Shown here piece by piece: positions 2,367 to 23,032 of a stretch of DNA of 23,032 bases. The notes beneath the pieces are model-generated. The model was not told the origin of the DNA. It ran no database searches and worked only from the letters and a program-made list of their open reading frames with translations. Position numbers and translations under genes: made by a program. Every line of letters begins with the position of its first letter. Position 1 is the stretch's first letter. Source of the DNA: a virus. The stretch lies in IMG/VR virus record IMGVR_UViG_3300037485_000702, positions 1-23,032 of that record. The stretch is one strand, 5' to 3'.

Positions 2367-2396
2367 ATTATAGTAATGGCACTTCTGTAGATTCAA
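2367..2396 (-). promoter_or_regulatory. Predicted sigma-70 promoter for the secreted-protein gene
   Basis: On the minus strand, TTGAAT (2391-2396), an 18-base spacer and a perfect TATAAT (2367-2372) lie across the 3' end of the methyltransferase gene. Transcription would start near 2360, leaving a leader of about 45 bases that contains the duplicated element. Confidence 0.5.
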
Positions 2397-3123
2397 TACG
2401 GGATTTGGCTATATTGAAGTAGGTTGGGTCTAGTTCTATGCCTATGAATGAGCGTTTGGTTAGTTTTGCTGCTACACCACAACTACCTGACCCCATAGTA
2501 AAATCGAGTACAGTGTCGTTTTCATTTGTATAGGTACGAATGAGGTACTCCATTAGTGCTACAGGTTTCTGTGTTGGATGTAGTTTACTACGTTGGTCTC
2601 TGGCAAAATAGATAAGTTGCTTAGCTAGGAGTTTATCTGGTTCGTATGTTTTACTATAAACCGTCTTATCAGGCATATTAGGCATTATCTCTTTAGCTGT
2701 GTTTGTGTTCGTAGAAACAGCTAAGTGCCGTTTTGATACGCCTTTTGGGTTAATGGTCTTCTGTGAATGATAGGTAGGTTGATTGGTGTAGAATACACTG
2801 GCAATCTCTATAACCTTCAACGGTTGCTTATTCCCAAAAAGGAAGTTACATGCTTTATCCTTCTGCCAGTACCAATCATACCTGTACATTTTGGGGTTAC
2901 TCATGATTAAAGCGGAAGTGAAGGGTTGTGAACCAAACAGTACTATAGCACCGTTTTTCTTAATAACTCGTTTCAACTGTGCCCACATAGGTTCAAATGG
3001 AATGATAGTATCCCATTTACAGGCAGTAGTACCGTATGGTGGGTCAGTCAACACTAGGTCTACAGATTCGGAAGGTATATCCCGCATCTTTTCTAAGCAC
3101 TCGCCATTTATGAGTGAGATCAT
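2368..3123 (-). CDS. DNA adenine methyltransferase, N6_N4_Mtase family, beta class
   Basis: A 251-residue S-adenosylmethionine-dependent DNA methyltransferase. The catalytic motif DPPY is at residues 27-30 (preceded by VLT, followed by GTTACKWD). HPTQKP (motif X) is near 182 and the cofactor-binding FTMGSGS (motif I) near 208, followed by GIELDPTYF. The order DPPY, then target region, then FxGxG marks the beta group, and DPPY implies adenine-N6 (or cytosine-N4) modification. I start at ATG 3123, giving MISLINGECLEKM as usual in the family; a TTG at 3132 in frame is possible. No restriction enzyme gene is adjacent, so it is probably an orphan phage enzyme that protects phage DNA or marks it for replication or packaging. 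It is first in a two-gene minus-strand operon. Confidence 0.93.
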   Translation of the reverse strand: MISLINGECLEKMRDIPSESVDLVLTDPPYGTTACKWDTIIPFEPMWAQLKRVIKKNGAIVLFGSQPFTSALIMSNPKMYRYDWYWQKDKACNFLFGNKQPLKVIEIASVFYTNQPTYHSQKTINPKGVSKRHLAVSTNTNTAKEIMPNMPDKTVYSKTYEPDKLLAKQLIYFARDQRSKLHPTQKPVALMEYLIRTYTNENDTVLDFTMGSGSCGVAAKLTKRSFIGIELDPTYFNIAKSRIESTEVPLL

Positions 3124-3134
3124 ATAATCCAATC

Positions 3135-14505: not shown

Positions 14506-16953
14506 ATGACAAGTTATCTTGGTGTTATTCGTACAGTAATGTTAGCGGATACGTCGCAGTTCAATATGGCTATGGCTAGTGCTACTCGCGCTACCCGTGC
14601 ATCAGCCATGCAAATGCGGACATCAGCCCAATCCCTCGTAGGGATTGGGGCTGCTTTAAATCTAGGTATCACAATACCCACCTTGATGGCTATTCGCGCT
14701 ATCAGTAAGGTGGGTATTGAATTTGATAGTAACATGATGAAGATTCGGAACGTCACTGATATGACTTCCGATACCCTTAATAAGTTCAAAGACGCACAAA
14801 AGGGCTTATCTAGTACGGTTGCTATGTCGCAACTTGATCTCTCCAAAATTGCCTATATCGGAGGTCAGGCACAGTTAAAGACGGTAGCACAACTTACTGA
14901 ATTCCAAAAAGCTATTGCTAACGCGCAACTTGCTTATCCTAGTGACGCACCAATCGAGTCTGTCGCCTCCGGGTTTACCAGTGTCATTAACTCATTTGGA
15001 ATTCAGGCTAGTGACTACGAAAAGACAATGGCTGAGATGATTCAGACCATTAACTTAGGCACCATCTCATGGGAAGAGTATGCTAACACGATTAAACAGG
15101 TAGTTGCAGTATCATCTAGCTTAAGAGACCCAAATGCGTTCCAGAAACTTAATGTGGCTATGGCTATGGCTACACAAGGTGGTGTATCCGGTAAATCAGT
15201 AGCTACCGCTATTCGGAATATTTATACCCGTATCTGGAAAGAAAGTTCCCAATCAAAATCGGGTCTAAATTATATAGCAAGCCAAAGTGGGTATAAGTCT
15301 GCGGCTGATATGTTTGAAACGGGTGCTGGTAAAGATTTAATAACCTATATCAAGATGGTTACTAATGACGGTAAGAACGCAACACCTGAAATTGCTACCG
15401 CATTAGGCATGATGCAGCGGGAAATAACGGCGTTCCTTAAACTCGCTAATTCTAATCCTGCAGAACTTGCACGGTTCAGAGCACAGATGGGTTCAGCGCA
15501 ACCTGACTTTGTAAAGAAGGTGGGGGAGGCACAGTCTAATCCACAGACAATAATGGCTAGGATGGCTACCGCATTCTCTAATCTTAAAATAAGTTTTTGG
15601 CAAGTAATTGGGCCTAAGTTACTCAAATTCGTAGAAGGGTTGACCCGATTAATTGACACGATAGGTAGATTACCAGAAGCAACCAAGAAATTGTTATTTG
15701 CTTCTGCTATGTTACTATCTATGGCATCCGCATTTTTACTTCTTGCAGGTATAGTTAAATCTGCTGTCTTTACCCTTACCCTTTTGAACTCTGGCAGTAT
15801 TGGTAAAGCAGTAAGTGGTGTACCTAGTAAAAAAGCACTAGCAGGTATGACTACCGCACAACTGTTACAAGCAGCATCCGCGCAAACTGGGGTTACTGTT
15901 GGTGTTCCTAATGCGGCTAAGATGCAAGGACGTGGGGCGGGGGGTAGATTCTTATCTTATGCGCAGACAGCAGGAAATACTGCAAAGATGGGAGGGGCAG
16001 GTGCAGCGGCTGGTGGAGCGTTCTTTGCCAATCTAGGAAAATCCGTTGTTACCTTCCTTGCTGCTGTAGGACGTGCGGGGGTTGGTTTTACTAGGTTTCT
16101 AGGTATTGGCACACTAGTATACATATTCTTTAAGGGGTTGGGGGATGCACTATCCGTAACGCTAATACCAGCATTAGCCAGTTTTGGTATAGACCTAAAT
16201 GATTTAGGTAATATATTCAAATGGATTACAGACCTTATAGCTCTACTTTCAAAAGTAGTGGCCGCTGCTTTCATACTCATTATTAGTACGGTTGAGACTA
16301 TCTTTGGTGTAATAATAGAGTTAGTTAAGGCTATATGGGAAGGTTTGAAATGGGTAGGTAATAAGGCTTGGAGTTGGGTAACTGGGGAGGAAAAGGTATC
16401 TGAGCAAAAGCCATTCAGTTATCCTGCTTTACCTGTAAAAGGGAAGGACGAGACACAAAGGCAGTATGAAGAACGCGCAATAGCATGGGACGCACGTAAA
16501 TCCCAGCGACGTGCCGAATGGAATAGAAGTGAACAAGCGCGTTTAGCGGATAATGGGTTCTCTGGTATTGGCAAGGAGCTAAAGAGTCTATTTACGGGTT
16601 CTGTGTTTGAGAAGAATATTGATGCCCTGCTATCTAAATATATAAAAGCACCAGTAGACACACCCCCACCTGAACCTACTAAAACCCCAAGTGTAACACC
16701 AGCGGCTAGTACTGAGGATATATTAAATACATTATTGATTGGGGCAAGGGGGCAAACTGCTGATTTTGCTGAATATGGCACACAGGCAGGATTTAATGCA
16801 ACACAAGACGCACGTAATTCTGTAACGGATGCTATAGAGCGACTCCGCAAAGAATCAGAACGGCAAAGTAAAGAATTGGCTACATTACTTAGAGATGGTA
16901 ATGACGAGCAAAAGATAACGAATGATGTACTAAAAGCAAGTGTTACGGAGTAA
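14506..16953 (+). CDS. Tape measure protein
   Basis: The 815-residue protein sets tail length. The N-terminal 370 residues carry the TP901/PhageMin core (TRATRASAMQMRTSAQSL, AISKVGIEFDSNMMKIRNVTDM, IESVASGFTSVINSFGI, GTISWEEYANTIKQVVAVSS, GGVSGKSVATAIRNIYTRIW). Three hydrophobic regions follow, about 395-427, 506-545 and 572-612, the usual membrane-inserting parts. A proline-rich linker lies near 719-735, and a charged helical end near 780-815. A tail length near 100-120 nm would be expected from this size by the common rule of about 0.15 nm per residue. AAAGGA precedes the ATG. Confidence 0.93.
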   Translation: MTSYLGVIRTVMLADTSQFNMAMASATRATRASAMQMRTSAQSLVGIGAALNLGITIPTLMAIRAISKVGIEFDSNMMKIRNVTDMTSDTLNKFKDAQKGLSSTVAMSQLDLSKIAYIGGQAQLKTVAQLTEFQKAIANAQLAYPSDAPIESVASGFTSVINSFGIQASDYEKTMAEMIQTINLGTISWEEYANTIKQVVAVSSSLRDPNAFQKLNVAMAMATQGGVSGKSVATAIRNIYTRIWKESSQSKSGLNYIASQSGYKSAADMFETGAGKDLITYIKMVTNDGKNATPEIATALGMMQREITAFLKLANSNPAELARFRAQMGSAQPDFVKKVGEAQSNPQTIMARMATAFSNLKISFWQVIGPKLLKFVEGLTRLIDTIGRLPEATKKLLFASAMLLSMASAFLLLAGIVKSAVFTLTLLNSGSIGKAVSGVPSKKALAGMTTAQLLQAASAQTGVTVGVPNAAKMQGRGAGGRFLSYAQTAGNTAKMGGAGAAAGGAFFANLGKSVVTFLAAVGRAGVGFTRFLGIGTLVYIFFKGLGDALSVTLIPALASFGIDLNDLGNIFKWITDLIALLSKVVAAAFILIISTVETIFGVIIELVKAIWEGLKWVGNKAWSWVTGEEKVSEQKPFSYPALPVKGKDETQRQYEERAIAWDARKSQRRAEWNRSEQARLADNGFSGIGKELKSLFTGSVFEKNIDALLSKYIKAPVDTPPPEPTKTPSVTPAASTEDILNTLLIGARGQTADFAEYGTQAGFNATQDARNSVTDAIERLRKESERQSKELATLLRDGNDEQKITNDVLKASVTE

Positions 16954-16955
16954 TT

Positions 16956-18146
16956 ATGGGTGTTATACTGTGCAAAGAGGTAACTAGTTTAGGCGATGCG
17001 TGTGGTATAGATACCGAAAAGATTGGGTATCGAGAGAATAGCGTTCTCACTGCCACAAGAAAGTTTATAATACAACTAAGCACCGATAGTGATCTGTCTA
17101 CTTATTCAGAAGATATGTTGGCAGCATTACCTATTCGGGGTAGTGTACACCCGGCAATTACTACTTGTTTTGTAGATAATATCTCCTGTGTGGCAAAAGA
17201 AGACCCATACACCTATGAAGCATCAGTAAATTATAAGTGGAATCAGAATACAAGTGGTACCACACCGGACGAAGAAAAGCCAGAGGATAGTGACCCTAAC
17301 TTGCCGTGGACCCAACCGGCATCATTATCATTCAATTCCGACACATCCATTACGCGTGCTATGGACAAAGCCTATGGTTGTTTGGGTGCCCAGTATATAA
17401 CAGCCCTTACCCCATCTACCATTCAGGCACTAAATTTAGCAAATATAGACGCTGATAAAGATTTATATGGTAAGGTATATGCTAATGGTACTGGGGTTGA
17501 TTTAAATGTTCCCCTAGTTATAAGACCAATAAACGAACAACCAATGAATCTACCGGAAGAACCAGTAGGTGGGGTTGCCATAACGCTTTCTGCTAATATT
17601 AAAGGCAAGAACGTGAATAGCCCTGTTACACATGACTTCTCTGTTATACAGGATTTACTAGCGTTATCCCATACAGTATATGCTATTAAAGACGCTGCAA
17701 CAGCATTCGATATACGTGGGTATGATATCAAACGGTATTGTGGTTATATCAGTAACATAAATATTGAGAACTCATGGTACTTTAGTCAGGTATTTAAAAA
17801 GAATTATGCTTACTACAAAGTAACTATTACTATCATAGATAATAGGGAAACATGGGTTCGACCTGTTCTGAATCTAAGTTATAATTATCTTGGGCAAACA
17901 ATACCTAAAACTGTAACGCAGATACGGGTAAAAGATGATAAAACAAAGACAGAGGAACTACCTGACAAACCACTGTATATTGATGTACTTACCGGATTGC
18001 CATTAGCGGTTAATGTTGAAACGGGGCAACAACAAGACACAAATGGGCGGGAACATGCCGTATTGTATTTGACTAAACCTATAAATGCGTGGGCTACACT
18101 AAAGACGTTTATAGAAGGATTAGAATGGGATGCACCACAGGCGTAA
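16956..18146 (+). CDS. Tail protein of unknown function, probably tail tip
   Basis: A 396-residue protein directly after the tape measure, with CGGAG before the ATG. It is beta-rich without recognisable catalytic motifs. Visible landmarks are RGSVHPAITTCFVDNISCVAKEDPYTYEASVNYKW, an acidic linker (TPDEEKPEDSDPNLPW), PWTQPASLSFNSD, and a second half with YFSQVFKKNYAYYKVTITIIDNRETWVRPVLNL. The W-Q-P linker and following strand pattern recall tail-tip proteins seen in other uncharacterised siphoviruses. Position suggests the distal tail or hub; I cannot name a family. Confidence 0.6.
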   Translation: MGVILCKEVTSLGDACGIDTEKIGYRENSVLTATRKFIIQLSTDSDLSTYSEDMLAALPIRGSVHPAITTCFVDNISCVAKEDPYTYEASVNYKWNQNTSGTTPDEEKPEDSDPNLPWTQPASLSFNSDTSITRAMDKAYGCLGAQYITALTPSTIQALNLANIDADKDLYGKVYANGTGVDLNVPLVIRPINEQPMNLPEEPVGGVAITLSANIKGKNVNSPVTHDFSVIQDLLALSHTVYAIKDAATAFDIRGYDIKRYCGYISNINIENSWYFSQVFKKNYAYYKVTITIIDNRETWVRPVLNLSYNYLGQTIPKTVTQIRVKDDKTKTEELPDKPLYIDVLTGLPLAVNVETGQQQDTNGREHAVLYLTKPINAWATLKTFIEGLEWDAPQA

Positions 18147-18149
18147 AGT

Positions 18150-18653
18150 ATGATACTTAAACGTAAACAGTATGAGAGTATCTTAAAGGATATTAAGTCC
18201 GCTAGTGCCCAATGTAGCAATACTAGTACAGCCTCGCGGCGTATTGATACTGATACTAACTATGTCTACACGGCTAAAGTAACACTTTCTACTAATACTG
18301 CTACTGGTTCTACTGCTACCGTCTGGGTATACCAAGCTAAGATACTATGGACACCATTCGGTAAAACTGATTTAGACGCATGGGAACTTAGTATAGCAGC
18401 TAAGGCGGGTGATACCGATTTACTTCTATCCAAGTATGATTTAGCAGCACATGGTACCGATGTTATTTACTTGCCTTGTGTGCGACGTGGGTTCTACTTT
18501 GAGAACCTATTAAGTGGTGCGGGTGGTGGAACAGTTACAGTAGATGATGCCTCAATCAACTATAATACCGCTGACGAATTGCAGATTTATGGGTTTGAAA
18601 CGGGCCTCCCCGCTGCGGCCAAATCAATAGCTGAGATACTCATGGGCTTATAA
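18150..18653 (+). CDS. Hypothetical tail protein
   Basis: A 167-residue protein starting three bases after the previous stop, without a clear ribosome binding site. It has a basic N-terminus (LKRKQYESILKDIKSA), then a threonine-rich beta region (YTAKVTLSTNTATGSTATVWVY), then LPCVRRGFYFENLLSGAGGGTVTV. The context is a tail-tip operon. No family is recognised. It could be an adaptor for the large fibre that follows. Confidence 0.6.
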   Translation: MILKRKQYESILKDIKSASAQCSNTSTASRRIDTDTNYVYTAKVTLSTNTATGSTATVWVYQAKILWTPFGKTDLDAWELSIAAKAGDTDLLLSKYDLAAHGTDVIYLPCVRRGFYFENLLSGAGGGTVTVDDASINYNTADELQIYGFETGLPAAAKSIAEILMGL

Positions 18654-18654
18654 A

Positions 18655-21582
18655 ATGGCATATTCCCTAATAACTAGAAATAGTGCTGCGTCACCTGTAC
18701 TCAAGTATACTGCGCTTGGCGCATTAGCTGCGGGTCAGGTTCACGCACACGCAATGCCAACCCCAAGAGTTGTTCACGCACATGAGGACGCTAGCACTCC
18801 TGAAGGAATTATCCACCTATACAATCATGCGCATACGATAAATTTCTATAAGTACCACAGACATTTTATCGAGTCTATAGAACCACTTTTGCACGCACAC
18901 GATGGGGTTATAGAGCATAAACATACGATTGCTTACCAAGACGAGACCTATAAGTATTCTGTGACAAGGCAGACGGGAACAGACGCACCGGTAGTTACGC
19001 CGGACGTAGGCACAGCAGCAGTTATTCGTGTGCCTGATGGGGCTAGCCAGACAGATACTGAAAACGCTGACGTAGTGGTTGAATTAGCAGATACGGAAAC
19101 CCTTGGTGACGATGACCATCTGGTTGTTGGCCCAAGTGCTAATTCAGGTTATTATGAGCCGGGAAGCAACTACGCAGAGGTAGAAACTGCCACCGACAGC
19201 GTTGCAGATATATCTGTAGGGTTAGCCCTTGATGAGACACCGCAATCTAAAGTAGTTACCACCTCCGCTACAACAGACGCTGCTATGCACAAAGGTGTAG
19301 TTGGGGCAAATCCTGCGGTAGAGACTAATGCAAATGGTGATAACAACAAAGTTATTATGCTAGATGCAACAGACTCCATCGCGGGAGATATTCTCGGCAT
19401 AGGCAGTGGGGGAGCCTCTGTGTATTCAAACACGTACCATAAACAAACACCTCCTGATGGTTATTATAGAACAGAACCTGATACAAGTAAATGGTTAGCT
19501 GCCCCATCCGTTTCAGGTTTCGCTGGATGGAGTCTTACCTCTTGGGACCCTAGCCTTACGTGGGATTACCCCATGATTCGCTTTTACAAACTAGGTGATT
19601 CGCCTGATGGGGTTTGGACACCTAGAACCTGCAATGAAGTACTATCCGTCAATCCGGATATGACTGACGTTCCTTCTACCCTTGCCTTTGTTGGGACATA
19701 CAACTTAGGAGCGGAAGGGTATGGCTTGGAACAATGGGGGGATACATCGGACAACTCCGTAGGCTACGATACTGATGCTTGGTACATTTACAACTACTAT
19801 ACTGGTGCTGCATACAAAAAACTAGCGGATAACGCATTCGACCCTACAGGGGATTATGATGGGATAAACGGCAATACTGGAACCTATAGAATTTCTAGTA
19901 CCACCACTCCGGGTAGTTTTAGGGCTGCTTGGAACACGTTGCCGGAGTTGCAATATTCCCCTATCAAAAAGGCGTATCATGGGCAGCACCAACATGACAT
20001 TACAGATACACCTGAGTACACGTCTGTCGAACATGCCCACGCAGACCAAATGTATGACTATCAGCATAGGCATCAATGCGAGTTCCCTAAACACAAACAT
20101 ACCCCACCGGAGGGGGCTGATTTTGAGTCGCATAAGCATACCATAACAATAACAGACCACGCTCACGCCCCCGTTGTTTACGGCATCTGGCGCACAGTAT
20201 CTATACTCTCTAATGTCACGTTCAAAAGAATTGACGATGTATCCCCGTGGGTATTGTTTGCGGTAGACACCATTCAGGTCAGTTATCCTAGTCCTACTGT
20301 TGGAGCTGAAGTAGCAGATGTAGAATGGCCTGTATCTAAGGCTACTAGTTTATCCGTTGAGATGGAGTCAACTGTTGACTTGGCTACAGATATTGACCCT
20401 ACGATTGGGGAAGAGGATGCCGAGGAACAAGAAGGAACCAGATATACAGACCAAGTAACTATAGAGGATATTCCTCTTGCGTTTGGCGACTACATAGCTG
20501 GCGTCCCCGAACTTGAATGGGTTACTGGGACAAAAACTGCATTGGCTTATCATATTGGGGTAGGAGAGGCGGCTGGAACACCGGAAGAGCAATCGCTGGT
20601 TAGTCCTCTAGATGCTACAATTAGTGTGCTTGTACGCAATAACGGGGTTCTAGAACGCATGAAGGTGGGGCGTTTACCTACCGGAATAGCACACACACAC
20701 AGTTACACCGACAAAGCCTTTAAGTTATTGGCGCACCCACACGATGTAGTATTTCCTTGGCGTGGGGAACTTGCACATACCCATACGATGTATCTAGCAG
20801 ACCCACACAGTCACCCGCAAAAAAACATACCTACTGAGTCGCATAAGCATAATGTTGTAGCCTGTGACGAGACCCCACACACTCATGAGGTAAACTCAAC
20901 TGAGGAAGCTAGCGCATTTGTAACAGGGATTGACAATGTAGTTGACGATACATTTGACGAGGACATTGACAGTTCGGGAACCGTCTGCTACCCATTGTCA
21001 ACCGGCTCAACTAATGGGGCAGAGACTGGGGTAGCGACAGTAACTACAACTGATAACGCATTGTCTATGTTGCATGTAGTCTCTACCGTAGACCCAACTC
21101 TAGACGGGGATTACCAAAAAACATTTAAGTCTATTACCGGAAATGCCTTCTATTTGGTCTCATGGGTTAAGATTGACGACCCAACAAAGAGTTTTGGTGA
21201 TAATGGAAGTGGTTGGTATGTCCTGAATGGCGTTGCCTACCGCTCTTACGCGTCTGGCCCAGTTGGTGATTATGGAGCCGCAGAATATCCTTATCCGCTT
21301 TATGCTACCGTTACAAACTCAACGCTACTGGGGGTAAAAGATGTTGGTATAAGCAGAGATATAACTACGTCTGCTGAGAAGAAGTTTGTCCCTCATAAAT
21401 ACTACGGGCAATCTACTCTACAGGCTTATATCTGGGACTGGGCGGCTGAGACGTTTGATCCTGTTATTTCTTCTTTCGAAACGGCTGGTCAAGAAGGAAG
21501 CCTAACAGCAGTAGATGACGATGGGGAGGTAGACTTTACAATGACTGGGACTACGGATGAAAAGCTACATTCTGGCATCTAG
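18655..21582 (+). CDS. Large tail fibre or spike with three sets of six HxH motifs
   Basis: A 975-residue protein. HxH triplets occur at residues 30, 41, 58, 68, 80, 88; then 445, 460, 471, 480, 493, 502; then 680, 694, 708, 718, 730, 742: eighteen in three clusters of six with similar spacing (8-17 residues). Between them lie a globular aromatic region (about 260-440, many W, Y, G) and very acidic beta regions (110-255 and 510-660). A C-terminal globular domain follows (750-975). In the T4 long fibre tip, HxH motifs of three chains bind iron in a slender needle; the same geometry is inferred here. ATG 18655 comes one base after the previous stop and lacks a ribosome binding site, so coupling is likely. 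No enzymatic motif was seen. Confidence 0.7.
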   Translation: MAYSLITRNSAASPVLKYTALGALAAGQVHAHAMPTPRVVHAHEDASTPEGIIHLYNHAHTINFYKYHRHFIESIEPLLHAHDGVIEHKHTIAYQDETYKYSVTRQTGTDAPVVTPDVGTAAVIRVPDGASQTDTENADVVVELADTETLGDDDHLVVGPSANSGYYEPGSNYAEVETATDSVADISVGLALDETPQSKVVTTSATTDAAMHKGVVGANPAVETNANGDNNKVIMLDATDSIAGDILGIGSGGASVYSNTYHKQTPPDGYYRTEPDTSKWLAAPSVSGFAGWSLTSWDPSLTWDYPMIRFYKLGDSPDGVWTPRTCNEVLSVNPDMTDVPSTLAFVGTYNLGAEGYGLEQWGDTSDNSVGYDTDAWYIYNYYTGAAYKKLADNAFDPTGDYDGINGNTGTYRISSTTTPGSFRAAWNTLPELQYSPIKKAYHGQHQHDITDTPEYTSVEHAHADQMYDYQHRHQCEFPKHKHTPPEGADFESHKHTITITDHAHAPVVYGIWRTVSILSNVTFKRIDDVSPWVLFAVDTIQVSYPSPTVGAEVADVEWPVSKATSLSVEMESTVDLATDIDPTIGEEDAEEQEGTRYTDQVTIEDIPLAFGDYIAGVPELEWVTGTKTALAYHIGVGEAAGTPEEQSLVSPLDATISVLVRNNGVLERMKVGRLPTGIAHTHSYTDKAFKLLAHPHDVVFPWRGELAHTHTMYLADPHSHPQKNIPTESHKHNVVACDETPHTHEVNSTEEASAFVTGIDNVVDDTFDEDIDSSGTVCYPLSTGSTNGAETGVATVTTTDNALSMLHVVSTVDPTLDGDYQKTFKSITGNAFYLVSWVKIDDPTKSFGDNGSGWYVLNGVAYRSYASGPVGDYGAAEYPYPLYATVTNSTLLGVKDVGISRDITTSAEKKFVPHKYYGQSTLQAYIWDWAAETFDPVISSFETAGQEGSLTAVDDDGEVDFTMTGTTDEKLHSGI

Positions 21583-21585
21583 CCC

Positions 21586-21614
21586 TTGACTATTTACAAC
21601 GTATAGTATACTAT
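21586..21614 (+). promoter_or_regulatory. Promoter P5, distal fibre block
   Basis: TTGACT (21586-21591), 17 bases, TACTAT (21609-21614), starting three bases after the fibre stop codon. It is followed by AGGAG (21624-21628) and ATG 21635. A TTG at 21614 in the same frame lies inside the -10 and cannot be the start. Confidence 0.65.
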
Positions 21615-21634
21615 TGATACCACAGGAGCAAATT

Positions 21635-22225
21635 ATGTCCCGCACAATTCTCTCATATTACGACATTGACAGGAATAGGTGGTGTGAATCTGACGGTTCC
21701 CCCATCCTAGAACGGCATTTCCCATACTTCAATCTATACGAGACACCTGTACTAGTTATCAACCTAATCAACAGTGACGCTGACCCCGTAACCATCCTAC
21801 CATCCTCTACTTTCCAGTTTGTTGTAACTGATATGGATTATGACCCCATTGCAGTACCTATGACTAATGGGGTCAATAATGAAGCAGACTATGAAGATGT
21901 AGACCCTGATAACGGCATATTTAGCTTTAGGTTAAACTTTGCAACAGAAGAAGCAGAAGATTTACTAGATGGATACCGCAGATTACCTGTAGTAAGTAAC
22001 CTGAATATCATAGCTCCTACTACCAGTTATAACATTAACCTCATAGGTGACTCCATCCTTAACAAGGTTTATAAGGATACCGCCACCGTTATTCCTATTG
22101 GTGTTCCTTCTCAATACCGGATTAATACCACGGATGGGGGTACAGATATTTGGGACTATGGGCAGTCAGTTTGGTTAAGGCCGGTGCTTAGCAACGGAAT
22201 CCTCAGTTACTACCCTGCGCCGTAA
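21635..22225 (+). CDS. Hypothetical tail protein, BppU-like N-terminal pattern
   Basis: A 196-residue protein starting six bases after AGGAG. TPVLVINLINSDADPVTILPSSTFQFVVTDMDYDPIAV followed by DPDNGIFSFRLNFATEEAEDLLDG has the strand order of BppU-type baseplate or fibre-attachment domains, in which a polymorphic polyproline-free beta sandwich anchors receptor-binding proteins. The resemblance is weak. It is acidic and has no signal peptide, unlike the two genes after it. AAAGGA at its end serves the next gene. Confidence 0.55.
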   Translation: MSRTILSYYDIDRNRWCESDGSPILERHFPYFNLYETPVLVINLINSDADPVTILPSSTFQFVVTDMDYDPIAVPMTNGVNNEADYEDVDPDNGIFSFRLNFATEEAEDLLDGYRRLPVVSNLNIIAPTTSYNINLIGDSILNKVYKDTATVIPIGVPSQYRINTTDGGTDIWDYGQSVWLRPVLSNGILSYYPAP

Positions 22226-22234
22226 AGGACTATT

Positions 22235-22783
22235 ATGAAGTATTTACTAATATTATGTTCGCTATTGTGTGTAGGCGTATTACAAGCTGTTCCACCATAC
22301 CCGACCAACGCGGTGAAGGCTGAAACGGTTACTGTGCTGTATAATTCAACAAATCGCGTGGCAAGTTTAGGCCCGTCTAATGCAGTTACCCTTATAAACA
22401 GCATGATTAACACAAACGCAACAGTTACTTCTATCAGTAATGCTGTTGTTGTAATTCAATCTAACACTAACAACTGGAATACCGCTTATGGGTGGGGCAA
22501 TCATTATGGGCTATACAGAGCATTTAACTGGGTTCCGGGATGGAATGACGTTACCAATAAACCTTCAACTTTTACACCTGCACCCCATGATTATACAGCA
22601 GTTACTAACCCGCCTTGGTTGACAGTACAGACTAATCAACCGTATGCGGGGCAGGCGGGTACAGCACAGGTAGCAGTAGTTGCGTTATCTGTTGGCCCCG
22701 CAGTAAGTAACTCCTTTTTACGTGTATATGATTCAGGCGGTGGCGCGTGGAAGGTACTTTTACCCGGGGAGGTAGCACCATGA
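22235..22783 (+). CDS. Fibre-like protein with an N-terminal signal peptide
   Basis: A 182-residue protein. The first 18 residues (MKYLLILCSLLCVGVLQA) form a textbook Sec signal sequence with an AxA-like end (LQA, then VPPYP). Then comes an asparagine- and valine-rich stretch and NWNTAYGWGNHYGLYRAFNW, a phrase common in phage tail fibre proteins, followed by WNDVTNKPSTFTPAPHDYTAV. There is a good AAAGGA site. It ends with an ATGA overlap to the next gene. The fibre phrase says virion protein while the signal peptide says exported protein; I cannot reconcile these from sequence alone. Confidence 0.65.
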   Translation: MKYLLILCSLLCVGVLQAVPPYPTNAVKAETVTVLYNSTNRVASLGPSNAVTLINSMINTNATVTSISNAVVVIQSNTNNWNTAYGWGNHYGLYRAFNWVPGWNDVTNKPSTFTPAPHDYTAVTNPPWLTVQTNQPYAGQAGTAQVAVVALSVGPAVSNSFLRVYDSGGGAWKVLLPGEVAP

Positions 22784-23032
22784 AGAGATTAGTAATGATT
22801 CTTGTTTTGGCCTTGTGCGCGGTTTCGCGTGCGGGAGACTTGCGCATAGGTGGTGTGATCAACGCTGATACGGCCGTGACCGTGACAGGCACGCAGAGCA
22901 ACACGATTGCCGGGGCTGTGCAGACCAACGACACGCGCTATCTTGCTACGCTGACCAATGGCAGCCCGCACAGTTCAGTTTCCGGCATCGAAGGCGCCGG
23001 GACGCTGCACGTTACGGCCAGCGATACGAACC
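22780..23032 (+). CDS. Partial fibre-like gene with a signal peptide and shifted GC content
   Basis: The ATG at 22780 overlaps the previous stop and follows GGGGAGG (22766-22772) at seven bases. The 84 visible residues start MKRLVMILVLALCAVSRAG, a second signal-like sequence. Then comes a threonine-, asparagine- and glycine-rich part with QTNDTRYLATLTNG, like fibre repeats, and the frame runs off the window. From about 22800 the GC content is near 60%, against about 35-40% in the preceding gene, and codons such as GCC, ACG and CTG replace GTA and TTA. This suggests recent acquisition from a GC-richer genome, possibly the host. Confidence 0.6.
   Translation, partial: MKRLVMILVLALCAVSRAGDLRIGGVINADTAVTVTGTQSNTIAGAVQTNDTRYLATLTNGSPHSSVSGIEGAGTLHVTASDTN

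Follow-up and report, generated by a model that had tools for sequence, protein, structure and literature searches.

The 975-amino-acid (aa) protein described here contains exactly 18 HxH motifs, grouped as 6 + 6 + 6 in three widely separated sets, and we consider it likely, with a probability of roughly 0.6, that this protein is a trimeric tail-tip fiber (adhesin) of a tailed phage in which HxH motifs form metal-stapled shafts. The gene is located in a linear 23-kb sequence that constitutes a complete IMG/VR record, and the whole of this stretch (23,032 nucleotides) is referred to below as the window (Table 1). The iron chemistry of HxH motifs and the presence of several such motifs in one fiber are already known. 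What appears to be new here is their division into three separated equal sets, a layout of which we found no description in our searches of the open-access literature, in agreement with the earlier note, which knew of no precedent.

TABLE 1 Regions of the HxH gene and neighboring tail genes in the window
Feature	Coordinates	Strand	Remarks
Candidate HxH fiber/tail-tip adhesin, 975 aa	18655..21582	+	ATG start; ORF with 18 HxH motifs
N-terminal head, residues 1-29	18655..18741	+	Presumed attachment end, judged from position only
HxH set 1, residues 30-90	18742..18924	+	Spacings 11, 17, 10, 12, 8
Spacer region 1, residues 91-444	18925..19986	+	Net acidic; homolog not found
HxH set 2, residues 445-504	19987..20166	+	Spacings 15, 11, 9, 13, 9; weak tblastn matches, mostly to tail-fiber proteins
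Spacer region 2, residues 505-679	20167..20691	+	Net acidic; homolog not found
HxH set 3, residues 680-744	20692..20886	+	Spacings 14, 14, 10, 12, 12
C-terminal region, residues 745-975	20887..21579	+	Candidate receptor-binding or trimerization end, judged from position
Tape measure protein	14506..16953	+	PhageMin_Tail, E = 1e-11; phrog_28, E = 7e-23
396-aa tail gene between tape measure and fiber slot	16956..18146	+	About 40-56% identity in relatives
167-aa tail gene upstream of HxH gene	18150..18653	+	264 aa long in relatives; similarity confined to roughly the first 120 residues
203-aa conserved gene, right border of cassette	21614..22225	+	91% identity in the two closest relatives

RESULTS

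Eighteen HxH motifs are arranged in three sets of six.

The motifs start at residues 30, 41, 58, 68, 80, and 88 in set 1, at residues 445, 460, 471, 480, 493, and 502 in set 2, and at residues 680, 694, 708, 718, 730, and 742 in set 3. Our recount thus reproduces exactly the 18 motifs in three sets of six, beginning at residues 30, 445, and 680, that had been reported from a first reading of the sequence. The three sets have the same number of motifs, a similar length (60 to 65 residues), and a similar range of spacings, which overall vary from 8 to 17. They are separated by gaps of 357 aa and 178 aa, and 231 residues follow the last motif. Both the number of motifs and their clustering are beyond what is expected by chance, as composition-preserving shuffles of the protein contained on average 2.1 and at most 8 HxH motifs (n = 2000), compared with the 18 observed, and as the 20 other predicted genes examined in the window contained none at all.

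The distance from the third to the fourth motif is 10, 9, and 10 residues and that from the fourth to the fifth is 12, 13, and 12 residues in sets 1, 2, and 3, respectively, matching the values of 9 to 10 and 12 to 13 given previously. When spacings were permuted within sets, the probability that two spacing positions agree within 1 residue across the sets was 0.043, with the positions picked post hoc; this common 3-4-5 spacing is a marginal agreement and we treat it as weak evidence. The spacings are all odd in set 2 and all even in set 3, and set 1 has one switch, so that parity changes once in 12 instances (permutation P = 0.002, post hoc). Such coherence is what would be obtained if the motifs kept a regular strand register.

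His pairs aside, no similarity between the sets was detected at matching motif index (P = 0.22), and no DNA repeat linking the three sets was found. The sets are therefore not the products of a recent internal triplication, an origin that we considered and rejected. Pairwise local alignments of the sets did outscore alignments of shuffled sequences, and the shared histidines suffice to explain this. The earlier note had also described the domains between the sets as very acidic. This holds for their isoelectric point (about 4.06) and net charge (-30, -18, and -24), but their Asp and Glu content of 14 to 16% is ordinary for this phage, and the low pI is due to the small number of Lys and Arg residues.

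The HxH gene occupies an exchanged slot in the tail cluster.

The order of genes in the window is terminase, portal, major capsid, head-tail genes, tape measure, the 396-aa and 167-aa genes, the HxH gene, the 203-aa gene, and a tail-fiber-like ORF with a match to phrog_9729. The HxH gene thus lies downstream of the tape measure within the tail cluster, and synteny assigns it to the tail-tip/adhesion slot. The capsid protein is 89 to 96% identical in related contigs (89% in G003/L004), and the 203-aa gene displays identities of 91% in each of the two viral contigs that span the slot (L007 and L013) and 48% in a MAG contig (L266). In all three of these relatives, the slot of the HxH gene instead encodes an unrelated protein with no HxH motif, which is about 645 aa long and is partial in L266. 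We examined whether this could be a diverged version of the 975-aa protein and rejected that relationship. As the slot protein is unrelated in the three relatives, the HxH gene is a swapped-in cassette, and its left border lies inside the 167-aa gene, because the match of this gene to the 264-aa gene of the relatives is limited to about the first 120 residues. Exchange of the slot in the presence of a close capsid and a close right-flank gene is the usual behavior of host-recognition cassettes.

Sequence searches recover tail fibers with set 2 only.

The 975-aa protein had no match in Pfam, PHROG, or NCBIfam and no significant sequence match in the PDB, where no match to the solved pyocin fibers was obtained at E values up to 10. 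It had been proposed that homologs sharing the three sets of six be sought. A whole-protein search of IMG/VR viral contigs, 50,697 phage records, the phage's own record, and related records returned only the 975-aa protein itself. Searches with set 1, set 3, spacer region 2, and the C-terminal region as separate queries gave nothing convincing, and no phage homolog of the C-terminal region was found. Set 2 alone gave weak matches (best E = 0.03) that, among those listed, were mostly to tail and side-tail fiber proteins of T4-like and P2-like phages, along with the minor structural protein of Enterococcus phage EFC-1. HxH arrays were present in all four of the match regions inspected, of which three had been obtained with set 2 or a similar query and one with set 3. 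The original designation of the protein as a tail fiber is thus supported by the tail-tip slot, by the exchange of the cassette, and by the predominance of tail fibers among the set 2 matches, but not by any family match. AlphaFold, run on the single sequence without an alignment, gave a pLDDT of 30 for the full chain as well as for residues 670 to 975.

The protein shares features with several types of HxH fibers.

In solved phage fibers and spikes, an HxH motif from each of three chains contributes to a six-histidine octahedral iron site (PMC6116203). Such sites have been solved in T4 gp37, in the R1/R2 pyocin fibers, and in the spikes of P2 and phi92 (PMC6116203, PMC6957217). The tip of T4 gp37 coordinates seven irons, and those iron-binding histidines that have been tested are needed (PMC6957217). 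The seven HxH motifs with which the 975-aa protein had initially been compared are borne out by the T4 genome, in which the needle motifs of gp37 are found at residues 883, 915, and 929 and then at 966, 980, 989, and 998 around the tip; one further HxH is present at residue 742, in addition to the seven of the needle. The spacings near the tip (14, 14, 9, and 9) are within the range of the 975-aa protein.

The gp37 tip (PDB 2XGF) and collar-type needles resemble the 975-aa protein in having HxH motifs at spacings of about 9 to 15 in a host-recognition fiber, and a six-His octahedral iron per HxH layer would be common to both, by analogy in the case of the 975-aa protein. In the gp37 type, a Collar domain usually precedes the needle, two arms surround one tip near the C terminus, and the spacers consist of small residues, whereas the 975-aa protein has no match to PF07484 (or to any other Pfam family), has three sets far apart from one another with 231 residues after them, and has bulky or charged spacers. 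The residues between motifs are 28% G/S/T/N/A and 57% bulky or charged in the 975-aa protein, versus 73% and 27%, respectively, in the T4 needle, and T4-type packing is therefore not simply transferable. The suggestion of three gp37-like needles in one chain is not supported as worded by these observations, as the two-arm-plus-tip layout, the C-terminal placement, the Collar domain, and the small-residue spacers are all absent.

The R1/R2 pyocin fiber, composed of Rod, Knob1, Knob2, Shaft, and a lectin domain, is a beaded trimer in which an HxH-iron shaft is placed between globular domains (PMC6116203). This layout is compatible with that of the 975-aa protein, as far as the latter can be read from sequence, but the pyocin fiber has one HxH iron and one shaft, whereas the 975-aa protein has three sets of six and no sequence match to it. 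The gp12 fiber of Alteromonas phage R22Y, a predicted trimer, has six predicted iron-binding HxH motifs from His-24 to His-340 (PMC11705849), and a Burkholderia phage fiber has seven HxH motifs (PMC8174754). R22Y gp12 resembles the 975-aa protein in that several HxH motifs are distributed along a long stretch of one fiber chain, but these are six in total and do not form three equal sets, in contrast to the 18 in three sets described here.

Internal HxH arrays are also present in Tal-type tail-tip proteins, namely, the minor structural protein of EFC-1 (L015 1432-3450) and a Prophage_tail protein from IMG/VR (L249 4459-7041). Like the 975-aa protein, these have a further domain beyond the HxH array and a non-collar setting, and the EFC-1 protein is encoded just behind the tape measure and has spacers that are partly hydrophobic or composed of Thr and Pro. 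They differ in having only one array, with a nearly regular spacing of 9 in EFC-1, and the 975-aa protein, unlike the Prophage_tail protein of L249, has no match to PF06605.

Surveyed HxH arrays in viral contigs are mostly two-armed.

Discrete HxH arrays were sought in IMG/VR by pattern scanning, which identified at least 120 loci, and 105 distinct ORFs were compared. Filtered patterns were used because a first broad HxH scan had returned mostly low-complexity HxHxH or out-of-frame matches, and the survey pattern was biased by its requirement for HAH and for one step of 12 residues. Among the matches listed, 97 of the 105 array ORFs have two arms and 8 have one arm, the arms are separated by 29 to 67 residues, and the median distance from the end of the array to the C terminus is 25 residues. 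In the 105 arrays listed, the median composition between motifs is 70% G/S/T/N/A and 25% bulky or charged residues. None of these 105 ORFs has three HxH sets, an absence that applies to the ORFs surveyed and not to all phages. Pfam searches with eight surveyed array proteins detected a Phage Tail Collar domain (PF07484) in seven and Prophage_tail in one. The 975-aa protein departs from the surveyed arrays in its number of sets, in the gaps of 357 and 178 residues between them, in the 231 residues that follow, in its 28% of small residues between motifs, and in having no Collar domain. The exact 10-then-12 spacing is uncommon, with 13 loci identified by the filtered pattern; these look two-armed or collar-type, with the exception of L265, in which an array is absent in the matching frame. 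Inspection of all long frames at 267 loci revealed no second protein in which three discrete sets occur, and the sole other match was a low-complexity frame.

As some two-arm arrays in the survey reach 19 motifs, 18 motifs alone do not constitute a record. Fibers with 17 to 19 HxH motifs are encoded on viral contigs L078, L036, L056, L259 to L262, and L221, with two arms, a tip between them that comprises about 35 residues (more in L221), and a Collar domain in those tested (L078 and L036). In these gp37-like needles, the number of motifs is more than double that of T4. Another ORF (L149 9353-9847) contains eight 12-residue repeats like DFAHTHVKADVT, with HxH in a bulky, charged context (DFAHTHVKAD...), and a tblastn search with this repeat gave no phage match. 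Since HxH also occurs in the bulky repeat of L149, bulky spacers alone are not unique to the 975-aa protein.

DISCUSSION

We propose that the 975-aa protein would assemble into a homotrimer in which HxH pairs from the three chains meet on the 3-fold axis, with each triplet layer coordinating a transition metal ion, probably Fe(II), octahedrally through six histidines. The trimer would thereby contain three stapled shaft segments with up to six metals each, or up to 18 in total, joined by the acidic spacer domains, and receptor binding may be carried out by the C-terminal region or by the spacers. Use of the same six-His chemistry in three shaft segments is, we infer, the most economical reading of the protein. 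In favor of this proposal are the number and clustering of the HxH motifs, the position of the gene and the exchange of its cassette, the solved octahedral iron sites of phage fibers and spikes, the HxH arrays of Tal-type tail-tip proteins, the spacing range of T4 gp37, the coherent spacing parity, and the matches of set 2. The absence of homologs and family matches, the composition between motifs, and the N-terminal position of set 1 count against it; with set 1 starting at residue 30, few residues are left at the N terminus for a domain that attaches to the tail.

As the antiparallel two-arm-plus-tip layout is absent, the sets probably do not qualify as true gp37 needles. A through-going shaft such as the Shaft domain of R-type pyocins seems more likely for each set than a gp37 needle proper, as shafts of this type are better suited than antiparallel arms to a protein in which domains follow each set. 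The most demanding version of the proposal, with three separate through-going metal-stapled shafts per chain, built from bulky or charged strands and carrying up to 18 metals per trimer, is one that we advance only tentatively and to which we give distinctly less than even odds.

The motifs may be axial only in part, with one set, most likely set 2, forming a metal-stapled shaft and the others belonging to non-needle domains, as parts of loops or hairpins that bind metal. This would account for the lack of common index-wise sequence beyond the motif, for the fact that tail-fiber matches covering most of the query were obtained with set 2 and not with sets 1 and 3, and for the position of set 1, with its mixed spacing parity, at the extreme N terminus. 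We nevertheless find it unlikely, as all sets are equal in motif number and similar in length (60 to 65 residues) and spacing range. A miniature gp37-like hairpin needle in each set, running three motifs down and three up, with motifs 3 and 4 connected by a tight turn, would place the turn where the spacings are most constant (9 to 10 between motifs 3 and 4, and 12 to 13 between motifs 4 and 5) and would follow the two-arm rule for HxH arrays (97 of the 105 listed). However, the arms of surveyed arrays are 29 to 67 residues apart, not 9 to 10, a Gly-rich turn was not seen, and a hairpin returns to its base and thus fits poorly with the domains that follow each set, making this arrangement improbable.

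Two further possibilities depart from buried staples altogether. The histidines could be surface sites for metal capture, involved in metal-dependent receptor binding or in a siderophore-receptor "Trojan horse" mechanism. An iron-carrying role has been proposed for HxH fibers of marine phages (PMC11705849), and charged residues are abundant in the sets, but the solved HxH sites are formed by three symmetry-related copies inside the trimer (PMC6116203), and we regard surface capture as very improbable. That the protein is no fiber at all, but a nonvirion or enzymatic protein located by chance in the tail cluster, would be in line with the complete absence of domain matches; this we find hardly credible, because the slot, the cassette behavior, and the type of motif all indicate the tail tip.

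HxH fibers carry several metal ions each and have a bearing on debates over phage-bound iron and over the folding of slender trimeric fibers. If the 975-aa protein does have three stapled shafts with nonglycine spacers, the known design space of these fibers would be wider, and the protein would provide a test object for metals as folding reference points. Through-going shafts with bulky or charged residues would then represent a second structural solution for HxH fibers beside the glycine/serine-rich arms of gp37. Should the protein turn out to be ordinary, it would be one further orphan host-recognition cassette.

Other features of the window and clues to the host.

Tail-fiber-like ORFs at positions 22235-22783 and 22747-23031 of the window, and at 4955-7411 of L007, start with signal-peptide-like sequences (MKYLLILCSLLCVGVLQA..., MKRLVMILVLALCAVSRAG...), which is unusual for virion proteins. 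At the other end of the window, positions 1-1560 comprise about 1.5 kb without long ORFs and harbor a repeated "gtataatttacactgtataagtaacagtt" stretch. An N6/N4 DNA methylase (Pfam PF01555) is encoded at 2368-3132 on the minus strand, opposite to the structural genes. A 263-aa secreted-looking protein, encoded at 1567-2358, also on the minus strand, has a C-terminal "VYTLWGSLDFSEWLVL" stretch, which we take to resemble secreted proteins of Verrucomicrobiota and their relatives and which presumably offers a possible clue to the host. A search of genome contigs for the host identified only one distant relative in Fuchsiella and a short contig from a Chloroflexi bin with a capsid match of 77%. 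L138 and L266 are contigs of a MAG with a Chloroflexi title ("DeepCast_200m") that harbor the 77% capsid homolog and the 48% homolog of the 203-aa gene, and they are probably phage contigs within the bin.
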